NCBI RefSeq assembly: GCF_007859935.1
Contig: NZ_SJPO01000009.1
Coordinates: 1 to 64,000, forward strand
Direction: 5' to 3'
Length of the DNA stretch: 64,000 nucleotides
Source: Posidoniimonas polymericola
GTDB lineage: Bacteria > Planctomycetota > Planctomycetia > Pirellulales > Lacipirellulaceae
Shown here: piece by piece, positions 603 to 9,800 of the stretch
Layout of the letters: each line of letters starts with the position of its first letter
Position numbering within the stretch: position 1 is the first letter of the stretch
Position numbers and translations under genes: made by a program
The notes under the pieces: generated by a model
What the model was told of the DNA's origin: nothing
Databases searched by the model: none
Seen by the model: only the letters and a program-made list of their open reading frames with translations

Positions 603-1514
603 ATGAACGCCGCCCCCCGCGAAGCTCCGAGTCACCGGTCGCAAGCGATGCATCAGTTCCCCTACTTCACCGACTACATCAACGGCGTCTTCGCCCGCGA
701 GAAGAAGCAGTGGGATTTCTTGCTCGTCCGGCCGCTCTTGCTGGTGCTCTACTTCTTCGTGCGGTTTGTCAGCTTCCCGCTGAAGTTTGTGTTCCACCGG
801 TTCCCGTTGGGGTTTGAGCCGTACCTGATTGATTTCTGCATGGCGTTCGGGATGAAGTACCTCGCCCGCGCCGACGCCGCGGAGCTGTTCATGCGGCACG
901 TCCAGATCGAGCCGCTGCTGTACCAGCACATCCTGCGGCGCCGCGACGACCCGCCAGAAGCCAATGGGATCAAGCTGAACACGATCGACGGTGACTACAG
1001 CGTCGAGGACATCCGGACGGTGCTTCAGAACCGCCTGACCATCGGGCACGACCTCTTGTCCTACGAGGTGGTCGACCGGTTCGACAAGCAGACGTTCCTC
1101 GACAACCTCGACTACATCCGCTCCGTCCAGCCGGGCGACCACGAGCTGTGGAGCAAGGCCGTGCTGGAGACCAACCGGCGGCACTCGCTGCAGTGGTTCG
1201 GCCCCACCAATATCGTGATGCTCATCGTGCTGGCGATCACGGTGTTCGGCGACCTCCGAACCACCGTCACGGCGCTGAACTCGTTCGGGTCGGACTCCGT
1301 ACTGCTGTGGTGCGTCAAACGCATCTACGCCGGCAACCAAGAGGTGCAGTCCGATCTCGATTTCTTCATGCAGGAGGTGTCCAACCGCGGCCACTACAAT
1401 TCGAGCGCGTTCTTCTCCAACCCCAGCCAGTACCTCTACTACCACATCGTGTTCGACGAGGTGGTGTACGACCTGCTGCGTAGGGTTCCCCCGCCCCGCA
1501 GCGAGGCGACCTAG
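603..1514 (+). CDS. Membrane-associated protein of unknown function, first gene of a KAS III/FMO operon
   Basis: I do not recognise this 303-residue protein. It has a hydrophobic segment at about residues 39-60, followed by a basic/aromatic stretch, and a second one at about 203-217 (IVMLIVLAITVF), so it probably sits on or in the inner membrane. The rest is acidic and looks globular, with no cysteine pair or obvious catalytic motif. The ATG at 603 was chosen over an upstream extension that reads like non-coding sequence; the ATG at 648 is equally possible, and neither has a Shine-Dalgarno sequence. It ends 3 bp before the KAS III-like gene, so the two are almost certainly co-transcribed. A role in handling the lipid or acyl product of the cluster is inference from context only. 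Confidence 0.7.
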   Translation: MNAAPREAPSHRSQAMHQFPYFTDYINGVFAREKKQWDFLLVRPLLLVLYFFVRFVSFPLKFVFHRFPLGFEPYLIDFCMAFGMKYLARADAAELFMRHVQIEPLLYQHILRRRDDPPEANGIKLNTIDGDYSVEDIRTVLQNRLTIGHDLLSYEVVDRFDKQTFLDNLDYIRSVQPGDHELWSKAVLETNRRHSLQWFGPTNIVMLIVLAITVFGDLRTTVTALNSFGSDSVLLWCVKRIYAGNQEVQSDLDFFMQEVSNRGHYNSSAFFSNPSQYLYYHIVFDEVVYDLLRRVPPPRSEAT

Positions 1515-1517
1515 CCA

Positions 1518-2597
1518 ATGCCCTGCTACATCACCCGCACCGCCTCGTTCCTGCCGAATGCGCCCGTCGACAACGACGGCATCCAACGCCGCCTCGGGGT
1601 GCTTGACGGCGAGGGCGAGGTCCGAGACGCCATCCTCGCGATGAACGGGATCCGGCGGCGGCACTACGCCCAGAACGATCACCAGGAGCCGACGCACGAC
1701 GTCTACGCGTTGGGCGCCGAGGCGGTGAACCGGCTGGCGACCCGCGCCGACGCTACCCGCGCGACCTTCCTGTCCGCGGGGACGACGTTCGCCCCCCTCG
1801 CCGCGCCCGGGTACTCGTCGATACTCCACTCACGGCTGAGCGAGTGCGGCGTCCTGCCGAGCCCGGTCGAGATCAGCTCCCACGCCGGGATCTGCTCTTC
1901 GGCCTCCGCGGGGTTGGTGGCGGCGGCCCGGGCGGTGGCCAGCGGCGACCACCGCACCGCGCTGTGCGTCGGGGCGGAACACGCCTCGGAGGTCCTTAAG
2001 TCAACGGCGATCCGGCCGGTCGACGACCGCAACCAGCACGGGAACCTCCGGAATAGCCAGTGGTTCATGTCGGTGTTCCTGAGGTTCATGCTCTCCGACG
2101 GTGCCGGGGCGCTGCTGCTCGAGGACCAACCCAACCGCCAGGGACTTTCGCTGAAAATCAACTGGACCCACTCGCTATCGCTGGCCAACCAAGCCCCCCT
2201 GTGCATGAAGCTGGAGAACCACAACTCGCTGCTCAGCCAGGACGTTTCGGTCCTCTCCAGGCATCTGTTCCCGGCCGCCGAGGTCTTCCTGCGGGACGCG
2301 TTCCAGCAGCACGGGGACTCGATCGACTCGCACACGGTCGTGCTGCCGCACATGTCCTCCTTCTTCTTCCGACGCAAGATGGAACGGGTGATCGCCAACA
2401 GCGGCGAGGGCGCCCCCACGCCGTACTGGACTAACCTCGCCACCGCTGGCAACACCGGCGCCGCGAGCATCTTCGTCATGCTGGACGAATTCCTGAGCGA
2501 GGACCGCGTGGCCCCTGGCGATCGCGTGCTGCTGTTCGTGCCGGAATCGGGGCAGTTCAACTTCGTGCTGATCAGCCTCACGGCGGTGGCGCCATGA
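1518..2597 (+). CDS. 3-oxoacyl-ACP synthase III-like condensing enzyme (thiolase fold)
   Basis: A 359-residue KAS III/chalcone-synthase-like condensing enzyme. The three catalytic residues of FabH-type enzymes are in the expected order: Cys126 in HAGICSSAS, His278 in VLPHMSS and Asn312 in AGNTGAAS. FabH itself starts fatty-acid synthesis by condensing acetyl-CoA with malonyl-ACP, but this protein is divergent (about 359 against about 320 residues) and stands apart from other fab genes. It more likely makes a dedicated acyl or ketoacyl product. It overlaps the downstream FAD monooxygenase by 4 bp (ATGA) and lies 3 bp after the membrane-protein gene, which points to one pathway. Substrate unknown; a FabH paralogue acting in primary metabolism cannot be excluded. 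Confidence 0.85.
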   Translation: MPCYITRTASFLPNAPVDNDGIQRRLGVLDGEGEVRDAILAMNGIRRRHYAQNDHQEPTHDVYALGAEAVNRLATRADATRATFLSAGTTFAPLAAPGYSSILHSRLSECGVLPSPVEISSHAGICSSASAGLVAAARAVASGDHRTALCVGAEHASEVLKSTAIRPVDDRNQHGNLRNSQWFMSVFLRFMLSDGAGALLLEDQPNRQGLSLKINWTHSLSLANQAPLCMKLENHNSLLSQDVSVLSRHLFPAAEVFLRDAFQQHGDSIDSHTVVLPHMSSFFFRRKMERVIANSGEGAPTPYWTNLATAGNTGAASIFVMLDEFLSEDRVAPGDRVLLFVPESGQFNFVLISLTAVAP

Positions 2598-4192
2598 CCG
2601 CCGGGCGGGGCCGGCTCGCGATCGTCGGCGCCGGGAGCAGCGGGCTGATCAGCCTCAAGCACGCCCTCGACGCGCTGCCCGAATGGGAGATCGAGTGCTT
2701 CGAAGAATCGGACACCGTGACTGGGGCGTGGGGCCGCCCGTACGACGGCTTCGTCTCGACGTCGACCAAGTACACCACGCAGTTCAGCTGCCTGCCCGTC
2801 TACGACGCGTCGGTCCAGCCCGACCGGGGCGAGAGCCGCAGCGAGTTCTTCCGCGACGGCGAGTACGGCGAGTACCTCAACCGGTTCGCCGAGCATTTTG
2901 ATCTGCGGCGGCACATCAAGTTTCGCCGCCGCGTGCTCTCGGTCCGCCGCCCCCAGGACGCCACCGGGTGGGAGGTAACCTTCCAATCGGACCCAGCCGC
3001 TGAAACGCAGACCAGCCGGTTCGACGCCGTCATCCTCTGTACGGGCCTGGTGGCCGAGCCTCGATCGTCGGGCGACCATCCGCACGCCATCGACCCGAGG
3101 ACGCTCTTCTCGCACGAACGCACGGCGTCGATCACCGGCAAGGCCGTGGCGGTCATCGGCGGCGGAGAAATGGCCGCCGACTTCGCCAACCGCTTCGCGC
3201 GGCCCGAGCTCGGCAATCGAGTGCTGCTGTCGCTCCGCTCGGGAGTCCGCGTGAGCCCGCGGTACCACCCGATACGCGGCGTGCCGTCCGACTTCCTGCG
3301 GAACCGGCTCATGCTGTCGATCCACGAAGACATCCGCAACCGGATCGGGAACTGGTTTGTCCGCACCCGCATCCGGCGACAGGAATGGCTGGAGTGGCTC
3401 TTCCCCGACGCCAAGTCTGCGGGCGCCGCTCACGATACGCAGGCCTACGCCCGCCGCAAGCAGTGGGGGGAGATCCTCAACCGCCGCGCCCAGCACAACC
3501 TGTTCGACATGTTTCACAACAAGAGCGACGACTTCCTCACCGCCGTCGCCGAGGATCGCCTGCGCATCGTCGGCCCACCGGTCGACTCGTCGTTGACCAA
3601 GTGGGAAGGGTTCGACGACGACGGTCCCCACCACTTCACGCCGGACGTCGTGGTCCCCGCGATTGGCTTCCGTTCCAGGCTCGGCGAGGTCCTGGGCGGC
3701 GGAGCCAGCGTACGCGACTTCTACCTCGGCTGCCGGCACGCCGAGCACGACGACCTGTTTCTTGTCGGGTTCGCCCGGCCGGTGATCGGCAACATCCCCT
3801 CGATTAGCGAGATCCAGGCCAGGTACGTCAGCAGCGTGATCGCCGGCCGGACGCCGCGCCCCGACAACCTCACCGAGCTCCATCGGGCGGACGTCGAAGC
3901 CCGCACCGCACGGTACCGCGGCGTCGACACCCGACTAATCTACCCCGTTGAGATGTTCCCCTACTGCGATCGCCTGGCGGCGGCGATGGGCGAGAGCCCA
4001 CGGGCGGCGTCACTCGTGGACTGGTGGACCCAGAACACGGCCCCGGCCACGACGCTCGACTACCACTGCTTCGGTGAACAACGCGGCGCCCGCCCGCGGC
4101 CCCCTACCTACATGCCGACCGTGCTGATAGCGCTGCTCCTCGCCCTGAAGCCGGTCGATTGGACTTACCGGCTGCTGCTTGCCTGTCGCTGA
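2594..4192 (+). CDS. Flavin-containing monooxygenase-like oxidoreductase
   Basis: A 532-residue two-dinucleotide-binding flavoprotein of the FMO/Baeyer-Villiger type. An N-terminal FAD-binding Rossmann motif (VGAGSSG, residues 11-17) follows the first strand. A second one, for NADPH (VIGGGEMAADF, from about 187), comes just after a short LFSHERT stretch where FMOs carry their signature. Such enzymes insert one oxygen atom into a nitrogen, sulfur or ketone substrate. The C-terminal end (LLIALLLALKPVDW region) is hydrophobic and may contact the membrane. The start overlaps the KAS III stop (ATGA), so the genes are translationally coupled. Its last 28 bp overlap the P450 gene tail to tail. Substrate unknown; a function on the product of the condensing enzyme is inferred. 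Confidence 0.83.
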   Translation: MTAGRGRLAIVGAGSSGLISLKHALDALPEWEIECFEESDTVTGAWGRPYDGFVSTSTKYTTQFSCLPVYDASVQPDRGESRSEFFRDGEYGEYLNRFAEHFDLRRHIKFRRRVLSVRRPQDATGWEVTFQSDPAAETQTSRFDAVILCTGLVAEPRSSGDHPHAIDPRTLFSHERTASITGKAVAVIGGGEMAADFANRFARPELGNRVLLSLRSGVRVSPRYHPIRGVPSDFLRNRLMLSIHEDIRNRIGNWFVRTRIRRQEWLEWLFPDAKSAGAAHDTQAYARRKQWGEILNRRAQHNLFDMFHNKSDDFLTAVAEDRLRIVGPPVDSSLTKWEGFDDDGPHHFTPDVVVPAIGFRSRLGEVLGGGASVRDFYLGCRHAEHDDLFLVGFARPVIGNIPSISEIQARYVSSVIAGRTPRPDNLTELHRADVEARTARYRGVDTRLIYPVEMFPYCDRLAAAMGESPRAASLVDWWTQNTAPATTLDYHCFGEQRGARPRPPTYMPTVLIALLLALKPVDWTYRLLLACR

Positions 4193-5541
4193 GCGACCCG
4201 CACCCGCAGACCGTGCTTGGGCCGCATGGTCAGCAACGCCCGGACCTCGTGGCGGTGGCGCGGGTCGACCCGGATCCTGAGCTTCCGGGCCAGGGTCGCT
4301 AGCACGACCACCAGCTCTTGCATCGCAAAATGAACGCCAACGCAAACCCGTGGCCCGCCGCCGAACGGCACGTACGCGTAGGTCGAGCGGCGGTTCTCTT
4401 CCTTGCCGGGCGAGAACCGGTTGGGGTCGAAGACCTCTGGGTCGTTCCAGAACCCCGGGTGGCGGTGGAGCGCGTAGCGGCTGAACGCCACGGTGTCGCC
4501 CGCCCGCAACGTGGCGCCCCCGAGCTCGACCTCCCGCGTGACGTTTCGGTTCTCAAACCAGAACGGCGGGTGGAGCCTGAGGGTCTCGTCGATGACCATG
4601 CGGGTGTAGGTGAGGCGGGGCACGTCGGCCGACTCGATCGGCCTGTCGCCGAGGACCGTGTCGAGCTCTTCGAGCAGCCGTTGCTCGACCGCGGGGTTGC
4701 GGTCGAGCTCGTACCACGCCCACGTGAGCGCGACCGACGAGGTCTCGTGCCCGCCCACGATCATCCCCAGCACCTCGTCTCTGATCTCAGCGTCGCTCAG
4801 CGGCGCCGCCTCGCCGTCGGGCCCGCCCCCGCAGAGCAGCGATAGCAGGCCGCCCTCCGAGCCGTCACGGCGGTTGCTGTCGAGCATCCGCTGAATGAAC
4901 CCGTGGAACTCTCGGACGGTCCGCTCGAGGCGTAGGTTGAGCGGCGAGGGGAACCAGGCGCTCCGGATCACCGGCAGCGGCGCCTTGGAGCTGAAGTGAT
5001 CGATCGCGTGCGTCCAGCGTTGGACCGATTCCTGCGCCCCGTCGAACCCGTCCTGGAACAAACTCCGGCCAATGATCTCTAGAGTTAGGCGATCCATCTC
5101 CGGTGCGATATCGAACGACGCGTCGCGGCGGCAGAGCGGCAGCCAGCGGGCCGCCGCCTGCTCTGCCGCACGGACCATCAGCTCGCAGTAACCCTCGACC
5201 TGCCGCGGACCCAGCACTTTCTGGGCGGCGGCGCGGCGCCGCTTCCACGACTCGCCCTCGGCGACGACAAGTCCGCTCCCGAACGCGCGCCGGAACCGGT
5301 CGTAGAGCGGGCTGTTCTTGTCGAACGTGTCGTGGGCGCCCTGCAGCACCTGCTTCACGAGCGCAGGGTGGTTGACCAGGTAGAAAGAGATGGGGCCACG
5401 GTACTCAACGAAGTCTCCGTAGTCCTGGATGAGTCGCTCGAAGAACCGCTCGCGGCTGCCGGCCAGCATCCACAGCTTGTGGGACCACGGCGGCCGGGCG
5501 GGCGTTCCTGCAAACGGCGCTGGTTCCGGGTCTGAGGTCAT
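4165..5541 (-). CDS. Cytochrome P450
   Basis: A soluble bacterial P450 of 458 residues with every family signature. The I-helix oxygen-activation motif is GGHETS (263-268), the K-helix ExxR is Glu319-Arg322 in DETLRLH, and the heme loop is FGGGPRVC (393-400) with Cys400 as thiolate ligand. Overall layout resembles the CYP102/CYP4-like class, including the aromatic PPFW after ExxR. It hydroxylates or otherwise oxidises a substrate with electrons from partner proteins not encoded nearby. It faces the KAS III/FMO operon and their 3' ends overlap by 28 bp, so the transcripts are complementary there. Context suggests tailoring of the same product. The 102 bp between its start and the fusA stop hold nothing recognisable. 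Confidence 0.95.
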   Translation of the reverse strand: MTSDPEPAPFAGTPARPPWSHKLWMLAGSRERFFERLIQDYGDFVEYRGPISFYLVNHPALVKQVLQGAHDTFDKNSPLYDRFRRAFGSGLVVAEGESWKRRRAAAQKVLGPRQVEGYCELMVRAAEQAAARWLPLCRRDASFDIAPEMDRLTLEIIGRSLFQDGFDGAQESVQRWTHAIDHFSSKAPLPVIRSAWFPSPLNLRLERTVREFHGFIQRMLDSNRRDGSEGGLLSLLCGGGPDGEAAPLSDAEIRDEVLGMIVGGHETSSVALTWAWYELDRNPAVEQRLLEELDTVLGDRPIESADVPRLTYTRMVIDETLRLHPPFWFENRNVTREVELGGATLRAGDTVAFSRYALHRHPGFWNDPEVFDPNRFSPGKEENRRSTYAYVPFGGGPRVCVGVHFAMQELVVVLATLARKLRIRVDPRHRHEVRALLTMRPKHGLRVRVAQRQASSSR

Positions 5542-7891: not shown

Positions 7892-8917
7892 TCACCGCCC
7901 GAAAGCGGCTCTCCGGGCGGCGATCAACGGGCGCGGATCGACCTTCCACGTTCCGTTCTGGTTGACGACCGACAGCGGCGGGTTCATCGGCTCGCCGTTG
8001 ATCTCTGGCATGAGCTGAAGCTCCTGCCGGTTGACGTCGGCGTCGGTAAGGGTGCGTCGGCTGCCGCCGGGCAGCTGCAGATTCTCGCCAACCTCGCACC
8101 GATGAATCTCCGCTTTTGGCACGAGCTCTTTCATCATCGCAACAACCTCCGGCGGCGGGCCGGAGCCCTGGAAGAGGATCTTCGCGTCGGGGTGGTCAAG
8201 CATGACCTCGCTGGCGCCAGCTGGGTCTTGGGTGAGCATCGCCAACACGAACGCTCTCGCGGCGGTTTCAGCAGCGGCCCAATCCGCCTCGCGCGGCTCA
8301 ATGGAGTCGTCGTCGCTTTGGCGCCGGTTCGCCTGGGACTCCTTGAGGCTGACGCGGACACGCTGACCAACACGGTCAAGCAGCTGCTGGAGCGACTCCC
8401 GCGGCTTCCTGATCGCCGAGAGGCTCACAAGAGTGAGTTCGCCGTCGTCGACCCTGACAATCACGTGCTCGGCCGGCCGCCCTTTGCTAGCGGCGGCGAG
8501 GGCGATCCCTTGGAAGTCGACGCCCGCAAACTTGACGGCCTCTCCGCGGGACCCGGCGGGCGCCAGGCGATCGATCAGGGAAGCGGCGGTCTCGGACGGC
8601 CCCGCCAATCTTCGCATCACAGCGACGCTGGTCGACGAGGCGTCGTCCACGACGATGACCGTGGTGTTTTCTTGATAGTCGCCCTTGCGTGAATCGAGCT
8701 TCAAGCGGTAGGGGTCCTTCCACGCCACCCCGAGCGGGCGGTGGACACTCCGCCACACGAACCAGTCCCCCTTCGACTCGCAGTGGTCGAATGAGATCGA
8801 CTCGGCGGCCGCCGTCGACGCCGCCGCCGCCACGACGACGCACGGCAACAAGGCAATCAGCCGGTGCAATCCGGCCCCGGCACGCGCGGCGTGGATCTCG
8901 GTGGGGTCGGTAAACAT
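7892..8917 (-). CDS. Secreted protein of unknown function
   Basis: A 341-residue protein I do not recognise. A hydrophobic stretch at about residues 19-38 (LIALLPCVVVAAAAS) followed by TAAAES looks like a signal peptide, so it is probably exported. The true start may be a later codon, since the first 18 residues lengthen the signal unusually. The middle (about 45-190) reads like a beta-rich domain; after an acidic linker, the C-terminal half (about 220-330) has alternating helices ending in a strand-rich TWKVDPRP section. No catalytic motif is visible. It lies 109 bp upstream of fusA on the same strand and could share its transcript, but a functional link is not evident. Confidence 0.72.
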   Translation of the reverse strand: MFTDPTEIHAARAGAGLHRLIALLPCVVVAAAASTAAAESISFDHCESKGDWFVWRSVHRPLGVAWKDPYRLKLDSRKGDYQENTTVIVVDDASSTSVAVMRRLAGPSETAASLIDRLAPAGSRGEAVKFAGVDFQGIALAAASKGRPAEHVIVRVDDGELTLVSLSAIRKPRESLQQLLDRVGQRVRVSLKESQANRRQSDDDSIEPREADWAAAETAARAFVLAMLTQDPAGASEVMLDHPDAKILFQGSGPPPEVVAMMKELVPKAEIHRCEVGENLQLPGGSRRTLTDADVNRQELQLMPEINGEPMNPPLSVVNQNGTWKVDPRPLIAARRAAFGR

Positions 8918-9032: not shown

Positions 9033-9500
9033 TCAGCCCGCGGCCAGCCGCGCGAGCAGCTCGACCGGCGTGACGACCTCGATCGTGGGGTAGGACGCCT
9101 GGAAGGCCTGGCCGACAGGGTCCCACGGATCCGCCAGGGCGAGCAGGTCGCGATCGCGGCTCACCACCAGGCTGGCAGAAGCCGCGATGGCGAGGTTGAT
9201 ATAGTGCTCGTCCTTAGGATCGCGCTGGAGTAAGAAGACTTCGAGAGGCTCCGGCAAGAACGTAGCGCACCGCCGAACTCCATCACAGAAATAGTCGAGG
9301 CGTTGGACTGTGATTCCGAATTTGTGGGCGATCTTGGGCCGCAGACACACGTCCCTGAGTTCGTTCAGGATGTACTGCGATATGTAGAGGCTGACCGTTC
9401 CTTCACCCCCAGCGTCTAGGCACGAACCCGCCGGCCCCGTGGGTCCGATCAGCGCCTGGAAGTAGACGTTGCAGTCGAAGACGACGCGCGGGGCTGACAT
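9033..9500 (-). CDS. PIN-domain ribonuclease toxin
   Basis: A 155-residue PIN-domain protein of the kind annotated as 'putative toxin-antitoxin system toxin component, PIN family'. The acidic metal-binding residues are Asp9 (VVFDCN), Glu47 (LNELRD), Asp97 (RDPKDEHY) and Asp116 (VVSRDRDL). PIN toxins cleave RNA, often tRNA or rRNA, when their antitoxin is lost. The start used is the ATG at 9500, which overlaps the antitoxin stop (TGATG); a GTG one codon upstream (9503) is also possible. Strict coupling to the preceding small gene supports a toxin/antitoxin pair. The module lies just downstream of the rpsG terminator, between rpsG and fusA, unusual company for accessory DNA. Confidence 0.85.
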   Translation of the reverse strand: MSAPRVVFDCNVYFQALIGPTGPAGSCLDAGGEGTVSLYISQYILNELRDVCLRPKIAHKFGITVQRLDYFCDGVRRCATFLPEPLEVFLLQRDPKDEHYINLAIAASASLVVSRDRDLLALADPWDPVGQAFQASYPTIEVVTPVELLARLAAG

Positions 9501-9751
9501 CACTCGCCCCGCCGCATCGCGTGCTTCTCCTGCTCAAAGAGCTCGACCGCCTCATCCTCGGTCATGCCCGACTGCTCGAACGCCTCGCGGACGGGGCTGA
9601 GCACCTCGTTGAGGTCAGCCTGCTGAGAAGCCTTGGCCTGCGAAACAGACGCCCGCAGCTGGCTAACAACGAACGCCTCGTAGTCGACGCCGGCGGCCGA
9701 AGCCTGGTCGGCGAGCTGCTTGGCGAGGTCGTCGGGGATGTGCAGCGTCAT
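9500..9751 (-). CDS. Antitoxin of the PIN-domain toxin
   Basis: An 83-residue protein. Its N-terminus (MTLHIPDDLAKQLADQ) has the strand-then-helix pattern of a ribbon-helix-helix DNA-binding antitoxin. The acidic, helical C-terminal half ending in EQEKHAMRRGE would wrap the toxin. The start at 9751 is set by a strong Shine-Dalgarno AAGGAG ending 7 bp upstream; the in-frame ATG at 9772 would lie upstream of the predicted transcription start. The toxin gene begins inside its stop codon. RHH antitoxins usually repress their own promoter, and a small inverted repeat (CTTG-4-CAAG, 9762-9773) between the -10 box and the start is a candidate operator. Confidence 0.78.
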   Translation of the reverse strand: MTLHIPDDLAKQLADQASAAGVDYEAFVVSQLRASVSQAKASQQADLNEVLSPVREAFEQSGMTEDEAVELFEQEKHAMRRGE

Positions 9752-9771
9752 GGCGGTTCTCCTTGAATACA

Positions 9772-9800
9772 AGCATATCCCGCCCCGTGGCGTGGGTCAA
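9772..9800 (-). promoter_or_regulatory. Promoter of the toxin/antitoxin operon
   Basis: Read on the minus strand: TTGACC (-35, 9800-9795), a 17-bp spacer, TATGCT (-10, 9777-9772), close to the sigma-70 consensus. Transcription would start near 9765, only about 14 nt before the antitoxin ATG. The -35 box begins about 18 bp after the T-tract of the rpsG terminator, so the pair is insulated and has its own promoter. Confidence 0.65.

Follow-up and report, generated by a model that had tools for sequence, protein, structure and literature searches.

A conserved ketosynthase-oxidase cassette with a DUF6999-like membrane protein in Planctomycetota

A four-gene cassette lies near the start of the window analysed here, that is, the first 64 kb (positions 1 to 64,000) of contig NZ_SJPO01000009.1 (G000:C9) of the planctomycete Posidoniimonas polymericola. 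It encodes a helical membrane protein, a ketosynthase (KS), a flavin monooxygenase (FMO)-like enzyme and a cytochrome P450, and these four genes constitute a real conserved unit, to which the P450 often belongs but is more loosely tied. The cassette is read here, with moderate confidence, as a ring-forming lipid pathway of the DarB type in which a DUF6999-like protein and oxidases would stand in for DarA, both the chemistry and the product being predicted ones. Such an arrangement would represent a second kind of partner set for the DarB-type ring-forming KSs and would supply the first functional context for the DUF6999 family, to which no function has been ascribed.

Linkage and conservation of the four genes

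Two genome sets were searched, one of 396 genomes of the order (147 relatives in some searches) and one of GTDB species genomes. Homologues of the membrane protein and of the FMO (E<1e-20) were found in the identical 6 of the 147 relatives and in no other genome, and P450 homologues of at least 55% identity were restricted to the same six, the next best P450 elsewhere reaching 37%. Across the order, the membrane-protein profile matched 15 of the 396 genomes and a cassette-type KS (E 1e-162 or better) was present in exactly those 15, while three others (G099, G624 and G630) carried only more distant StlD/DarB-type KSs, with E values of about 1e-45 to 1e-50. The scan of GTDB species genomes retrieved 13 loci, all from Planctomycetota, in every one of which the KS and FMO genes adjoined that of the membrane protein. 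After overlaps between both collections had been removed by contig position, the linked membrane protein-KS-FMO trio was counted in 24 species (one contig ends inside the FMO gene), 17 of them with a P450 linked to it; in two species without a linked P450, one of 55-59% identity was located elsewhere in the genome.

Two gene orders were observed. In the first, the genes for membrane protein, KS and FMO follow one another and the P450 gene is convergent, co-directional or upstream, and in the second, KS, FMO, P450 and membrane protein form one tight operon. The flanking genes are unrelated between genera. The preliminary description of this DNA had proposed a four-gene cluster and expected its genes to stay together in related genomes; the trio does so, always linked amid unrelated flanks and with an identical presence pattern for membrane protein and KS, so the proposal stands for these three genes and holds more loosely for the P450. 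That the genes are chance neighbours, or were brought together by general horizontal transfer rather than by one pathway, would suit the patchy distribution (15/396 genomes) and the varying position of the P450, but it is nearly excluded by a trio that is linked in 24 species and shows an identical presence pattern, and we regard it as very improbable. Two scans of viral contigs for signs of viral carriage detected no relative.

Mean pairwise identity was highest for the membrane protein (68%), followed by the KS (61%), the P450 (58%) and the FMO (53%). The membrane protein is thus the most conserved of the four, which fits an enzymatic role better than that of a passive anchor. In two species a fatty-acid desaturase gene was found directly upstream of the cassette (L060:8967-9935 and L061:8944-9801), which hints at an unsaturated acyl substrate.

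The ketosynthase and its partner proteins

The KS, which had been labelled a β-ketoacyl-acyl carrier protein synthase III, can be placed by its sequence as a relative of the ring-forming StlD/DarB type, in a separate clade beside that family. It scored 265 bits (E 9e-79) with NF005293, whose cut-off is 450, and 235 bits with NF053539, whose cut-off is 550; since these scores are below the family cut-offs, it was not filed as a formal family member. The FabH profile TIGR00747 gave 40 bits (E 2e-10; cut-off 292). The closest solved structure was StlD (5gk0), with E 1.6e-41 and, in a profile search, 2.7e-65, against 5.6e-10 for the best FabH. In the phylogenetic tree, the StlD/DarB and cassette sequences were split from FabH-like proteins with support of 100/99 and 19 cassette KSs formed their own clade (98/100), the outgroup branches being long and the base being less well resolved in a second tree. 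A plain FabH paralogue, which would have undermined the cluster as first proposed, was thus ruled out by profile scores, structure match and tree. The Cys-His-Asn triad is complete, as originally noted, and is invariant among the relatives aligned; the LPHxSS and GNTG motifs that flank it are kept as in StlD/DarB relatives.

The membrane protein, first described as belonging to an unknown family, appears to be a divergent DUF6999 relative. The window protein, which has two hydrophobic stretches, reached 24.9 bits with PF22523 (DUF6999; gathering cut-off 27), and among its orthologues those of G547 and G729 exceeded the cut-off (29.4 and 28.2 bits) and two others scored 17 and 21. Profile scores were 12.7 bits for the DUF6999 protein of G624 and 8.1 for that of G630, the maximum of shuffled controls being 6.4, and 6.2 for the Pseudoalteromonas one, which is not above that maximum; when the cassette alignment was compared directly, by profile, with the one Pseudoalteromonas DUF6999 sequence, the result was not significant. 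Identity between the cassette proteins and the three true DUF6999 proteins compared is no more than 15-20%, and only 12 positions, including R83, H84, H134, D135, D216, H249, H266 and E271, are invariant across both groups. The relationship is therefore drawn from the PF22523 matches, the scores of G624 and G630 above the shuffled sequences and the shared residues, and the invariant His/Asp/Glu set looks like a putative metal site. Two AlphaFold2 models of the DUF6999-like protein were all-helical, with predicted local distance difference test (pLDDT) values of 75 and 78, and a profile search of PDB sequences with this protein yielded no match. A literature search found no paper that names DUF6999.

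The identities first given to the two oxidases were corroborated. The FMO exceeded the PF00743 cut-off of 22 bits (Table 1) and its motifs, checked in 17 homologues, are GAGSSG at position 12 for FAD (GxGxxG type) and, at 189, GGGEMAAD as a second nucleotide motif. A hydrophobic segment at the C-terminus (YMP..LLLALKPVDW) is conserved as well. The FMO/Baeyer-Villiger monooxygenase fingerprint FxGxxxHxxx[Y/F/W] was absent in all 17, which gives no indication of a Baeyer-Villiger reaction. The P450 matched PF00067 and preserves all signature motifs, with the haem loop FGGGPRVCVG, the I-helix GGHETS and ETLR (ExxR).

DarB usually has DarA as its partner: co-expression of darB and darA yielded dialkylresorcinol (PMC3992019), DarB being listed as the DAR-cyclase and DarA as the DAR-aromatase (PMC3949708). 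In the cassette genomes searched, a two-sequence DarA-like profile gave nothing better than E 0.04. A DarA-like homologue was detected in G099 (E 8e-28, with the Streptomyces plasmid sequence alone as query), on a different contig from its KS; this KS reaches 476 bits on NF005293, above the cut-off, and no DUF6999 match occurred in the 12 kb around it. DUF6999 genes were observed next to other KSs as well. For example, a plasmid of Pseudoalteromonas sp. THAF3 (L092:7992-10610) carries in a row a KS, a haem-oxygenase-like protein and DUF6999 (PF22523, E 3e-96), and in G624 and G630 the KS carries a fused haem-oxygenase-like domain (PF14518 in G624), with DUF6999 coming next (PF22523, E 1e-119 in G624; the G630 protein is 89% identical to it). 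Of the 18 StlD/DarB-type KSs found in the order, 17 adjoin a DUF6999-type gene; the other one belongs to G099, the genome with the DarA-like gene. The KS/haem-oxygenase-like fusion and DUF6999, together with a 186-aa membrane-like protein that is also conserved (L139:7079-10437 and L140:8839-12196), make up a second three-gene unit in the order, apparently an unstudied one.

The layout of the cassette in the window is given in Table 1. Open reading frames, a 3-bp gap between the genes for membrane protein and KS, a 4-bp overlap of KS and FMO genes and a P450 gene facing them are all as previously reported, the 3′ ends of the P450 and FMO genes overlapping by 28 bp on opposite strands. The start of the membrane protein had been placed at 603; alignment with relatives points to the position listed, and the start common to them (MHQFPY...) is most likely the true one. 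Because the window begins at the contig end, the left flank of the cassette amounts to about 600 bp. The absence of acyl carrier protein (ACP), regulator and transporter genes beside the cassette extends to relatives with full flanks, where none is conserved adjacent to the unit. To the right lie elongation factor G and the str/rpo region, with no evident relation to the four genes. Within the str region, a PIN-domain (PF13470) gene at 9033-9772 on the minus strand and a 90-aa partner open reading frame that overlaps it by 4 bp have the look of a VapBC-type toxin-antitoxin pair, and together with a 341-aa gene at 7892-8917 they sit between rpsG and fusA.

Table 1. Genes of the cassette in the window
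Product	Position	Strand	Features
DUF6999-like helical membrane protein	648..1514	+	288 aa; PF22523 24.9 bits
StlD/DarB-like ketosynthase (KS)	1518..2597	+	C126/H278/N312; NF005293 265 bits
Flavin monooxygenase (FMO-like)	2594..4192	+	PF00743 100 bits
Cytochrome P450	4165..5541	-	PF00067 271 bits

Proposed pathway and alternative readings

StlD/DarB enzymes form a ring of the 2,5-dialkyl-cyclohexane-1,3-dione type. By analogy with this family, the cassette KS would join two acyl chains, a β-ketoacyl and an enoyl thioester supplied by fatty-acid metabolism, and would cyclise them to such a ring. The DUF6999-like protein may then act on this ring within the membrane, taking the place of DarA, through aromatisation, oxidation or another ring step. 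The ring or its alkyl chains would next be oxidised by the FAD enzyme and, in most cases, the P450, giving as end product an oxidised dialkyl ring lipid borne in the membrane. For DUF6999, FMO and P450, these roles are deduced from association and motifs. A broader proposal, which is attractive but tentative and on present evidence somewhat doubtful, is that DUF6999 represents a new class of membrane metalloenzymes, a dedicated partner of DarB-type KSs in several phyla, which would define a second, DarA-independent cyclohexanedione/resorcinol-type branch with new oxidised lipid products. As Rubripirellula obstinata is a cultured carrier, the product can be sought directly.

Several observations weigh against this ring-forming pathway. 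The P450 is unlinked in 6 of the 24 loci, and a genome-wide search in one species without a linked P450 found none. The pairwise divergences of the four proteins are correlated (Mantel r 0.84-0.95), which fits co-inheritance, yet a common species history would produce such correlations too. Neither a Foldseek match at E<0.001 nor a VIA match at Z≥5 was obtained with the AlphaFold2 models, the predicted fold resembling nothing solved. The two query sequences used in the DarA searches are presumed to be DarA-like from their position and motif. Moreover, between the CM and SQD motifs the cassette KSs lack a segment of 20-24 residues (14 residues from CM to QD, compared with 34-38 in the five classical members compared), and therefore, together with the NCBIfam scores below cut-off, the reaction of the KS could have changed.

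This last point bears on the strongest alternative, according to which the KS no longer cyclises and a linear β-ketoacyl, β-diketone or long-chain ketone is made and oxidised by FMO and P450. FMO-like enzymes generally act on ketones and heteroatoms, which would suit such a substrate as well as the lost segment and the sub-threshold StlD/DarB scores do. However, the KS keeps the triad and the LPHxSS and GNTG motifs as in StlD/DarB relatives, StlD is by far its closest solved relative, and an FMO without the fingerprint does not point to a Baeyer-Villiger step, so that a linear product seems unlikely, though it deserves consideration. In the same sense, the small oxidised fatty-acyl or ketone product suggested in the preliminary description could be made, but a cyclised dialkyl product is the more likely one.

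Marginally less probable still is a simple exchange of aromatases, in which DUF6999 replaces DarA and an ordinary dialkylresorcinol is then hydroxylated by FMO and P450 to a hydroquinone- or quinone-like lipid. The distribution agrees with it, as the cassette genomes, G624 and G630 combine a DUF6999-type partner with no DarA and G099 has DarA with its KS, in what is a small set; but DarA was seen in one planctomycete only, DUF6999 is a family without assigned activity, and the oxidases that accompany it in all loci seen suggest chemistry beyond aromatisation. Of these readings, the DarB-type ring-forming pathway with DUF6999 and oxidases in the place of DarA is the most economical.

Comparison with known systems

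The cassette KS resembles the StlD/DarB ketosynthases of the Photorhabdus stilbene, flexirubin and dialkylresorcinol clusters in family-level similarity, Cys-His-Asn triad, size and closest structure. It differs from them in its scores below both NCBIfam cut-offs, its separate clade, the lack of 20-24 residues and the absence of a detected DarA partner. The loci of the THAF3 plasmid, G624 and G630 share with the cassette the combination of KS, DUF6999 and an oxidative partner, which in these loci is haem-oxygenase-like instead of FMO and P450.

A Streptomyces plasmid cluster (NZ_CP108315; L094:5712-13119) encodes in order an ACP, a StlD/DarB-like KS, a DarA-like protein, an FAD aromatic hydroxylase, SCP2, FabF and a P450, and two further Streptomyces plasmids carry similar DarA-like genes. 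It has KS, FAD monooxygenase and P450 in common with the cassette, but it includes the DarA-like protein, and the stretch read contains no DUF6999. The FAD enzyme of this cluster belongs to the aromatic-hydroxylase family (PF01494) and was rejected as a homologue of the cassette FMO, showing no similarity to it; the Streptomyces 321-aa protein likewise showed no similarity to the membrane protein and was rejected as its homologue.

In the same phylum, a planctomycetal alkylresorcinol pathway also produces long-chain ring lipids, but it uses a type III polyketide synthase, a different enzyme family, and DarB, StlD and ketosynthase receive no mention in that study (PMC10896814). By eye, the genome of the window also has a gene (G000:C6:257860, L005) that resembles those of type III polyketide synthases and may encode the known planctomycetal alkylresorcinol enzyme.

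A literature search found no paper describing the cassette. In antiSMASH analyses, one 'resorcinol' cluster was reported in Rubripirellula obstinata LF1 (PMC4982196) and one in Aureliella helgolandensis Q31a (PMC13241502). The cassette is present in R. obstinata (L063), and the genes for membrane protein, KS and FMO are present in G729 (L135), taken as A. helgolandensis Q31a, so it is likely that the cassette locus is what received this label in both. The 'resorcinol' (DarA-DarB) class and the cassette have the DarB-like KS core in common, and the cassette departs from the class by having no detected DarA and, instead, DUF6999, FMO and usually P450. The original view that this is not a standard cluster type is thus correct as regards DarA, which was not detected, but not for the DarB half of a 'resorcinol' cluster, which is present, and loci of this kind that are labelled 'resorcinol' may be credited with the wrong product.

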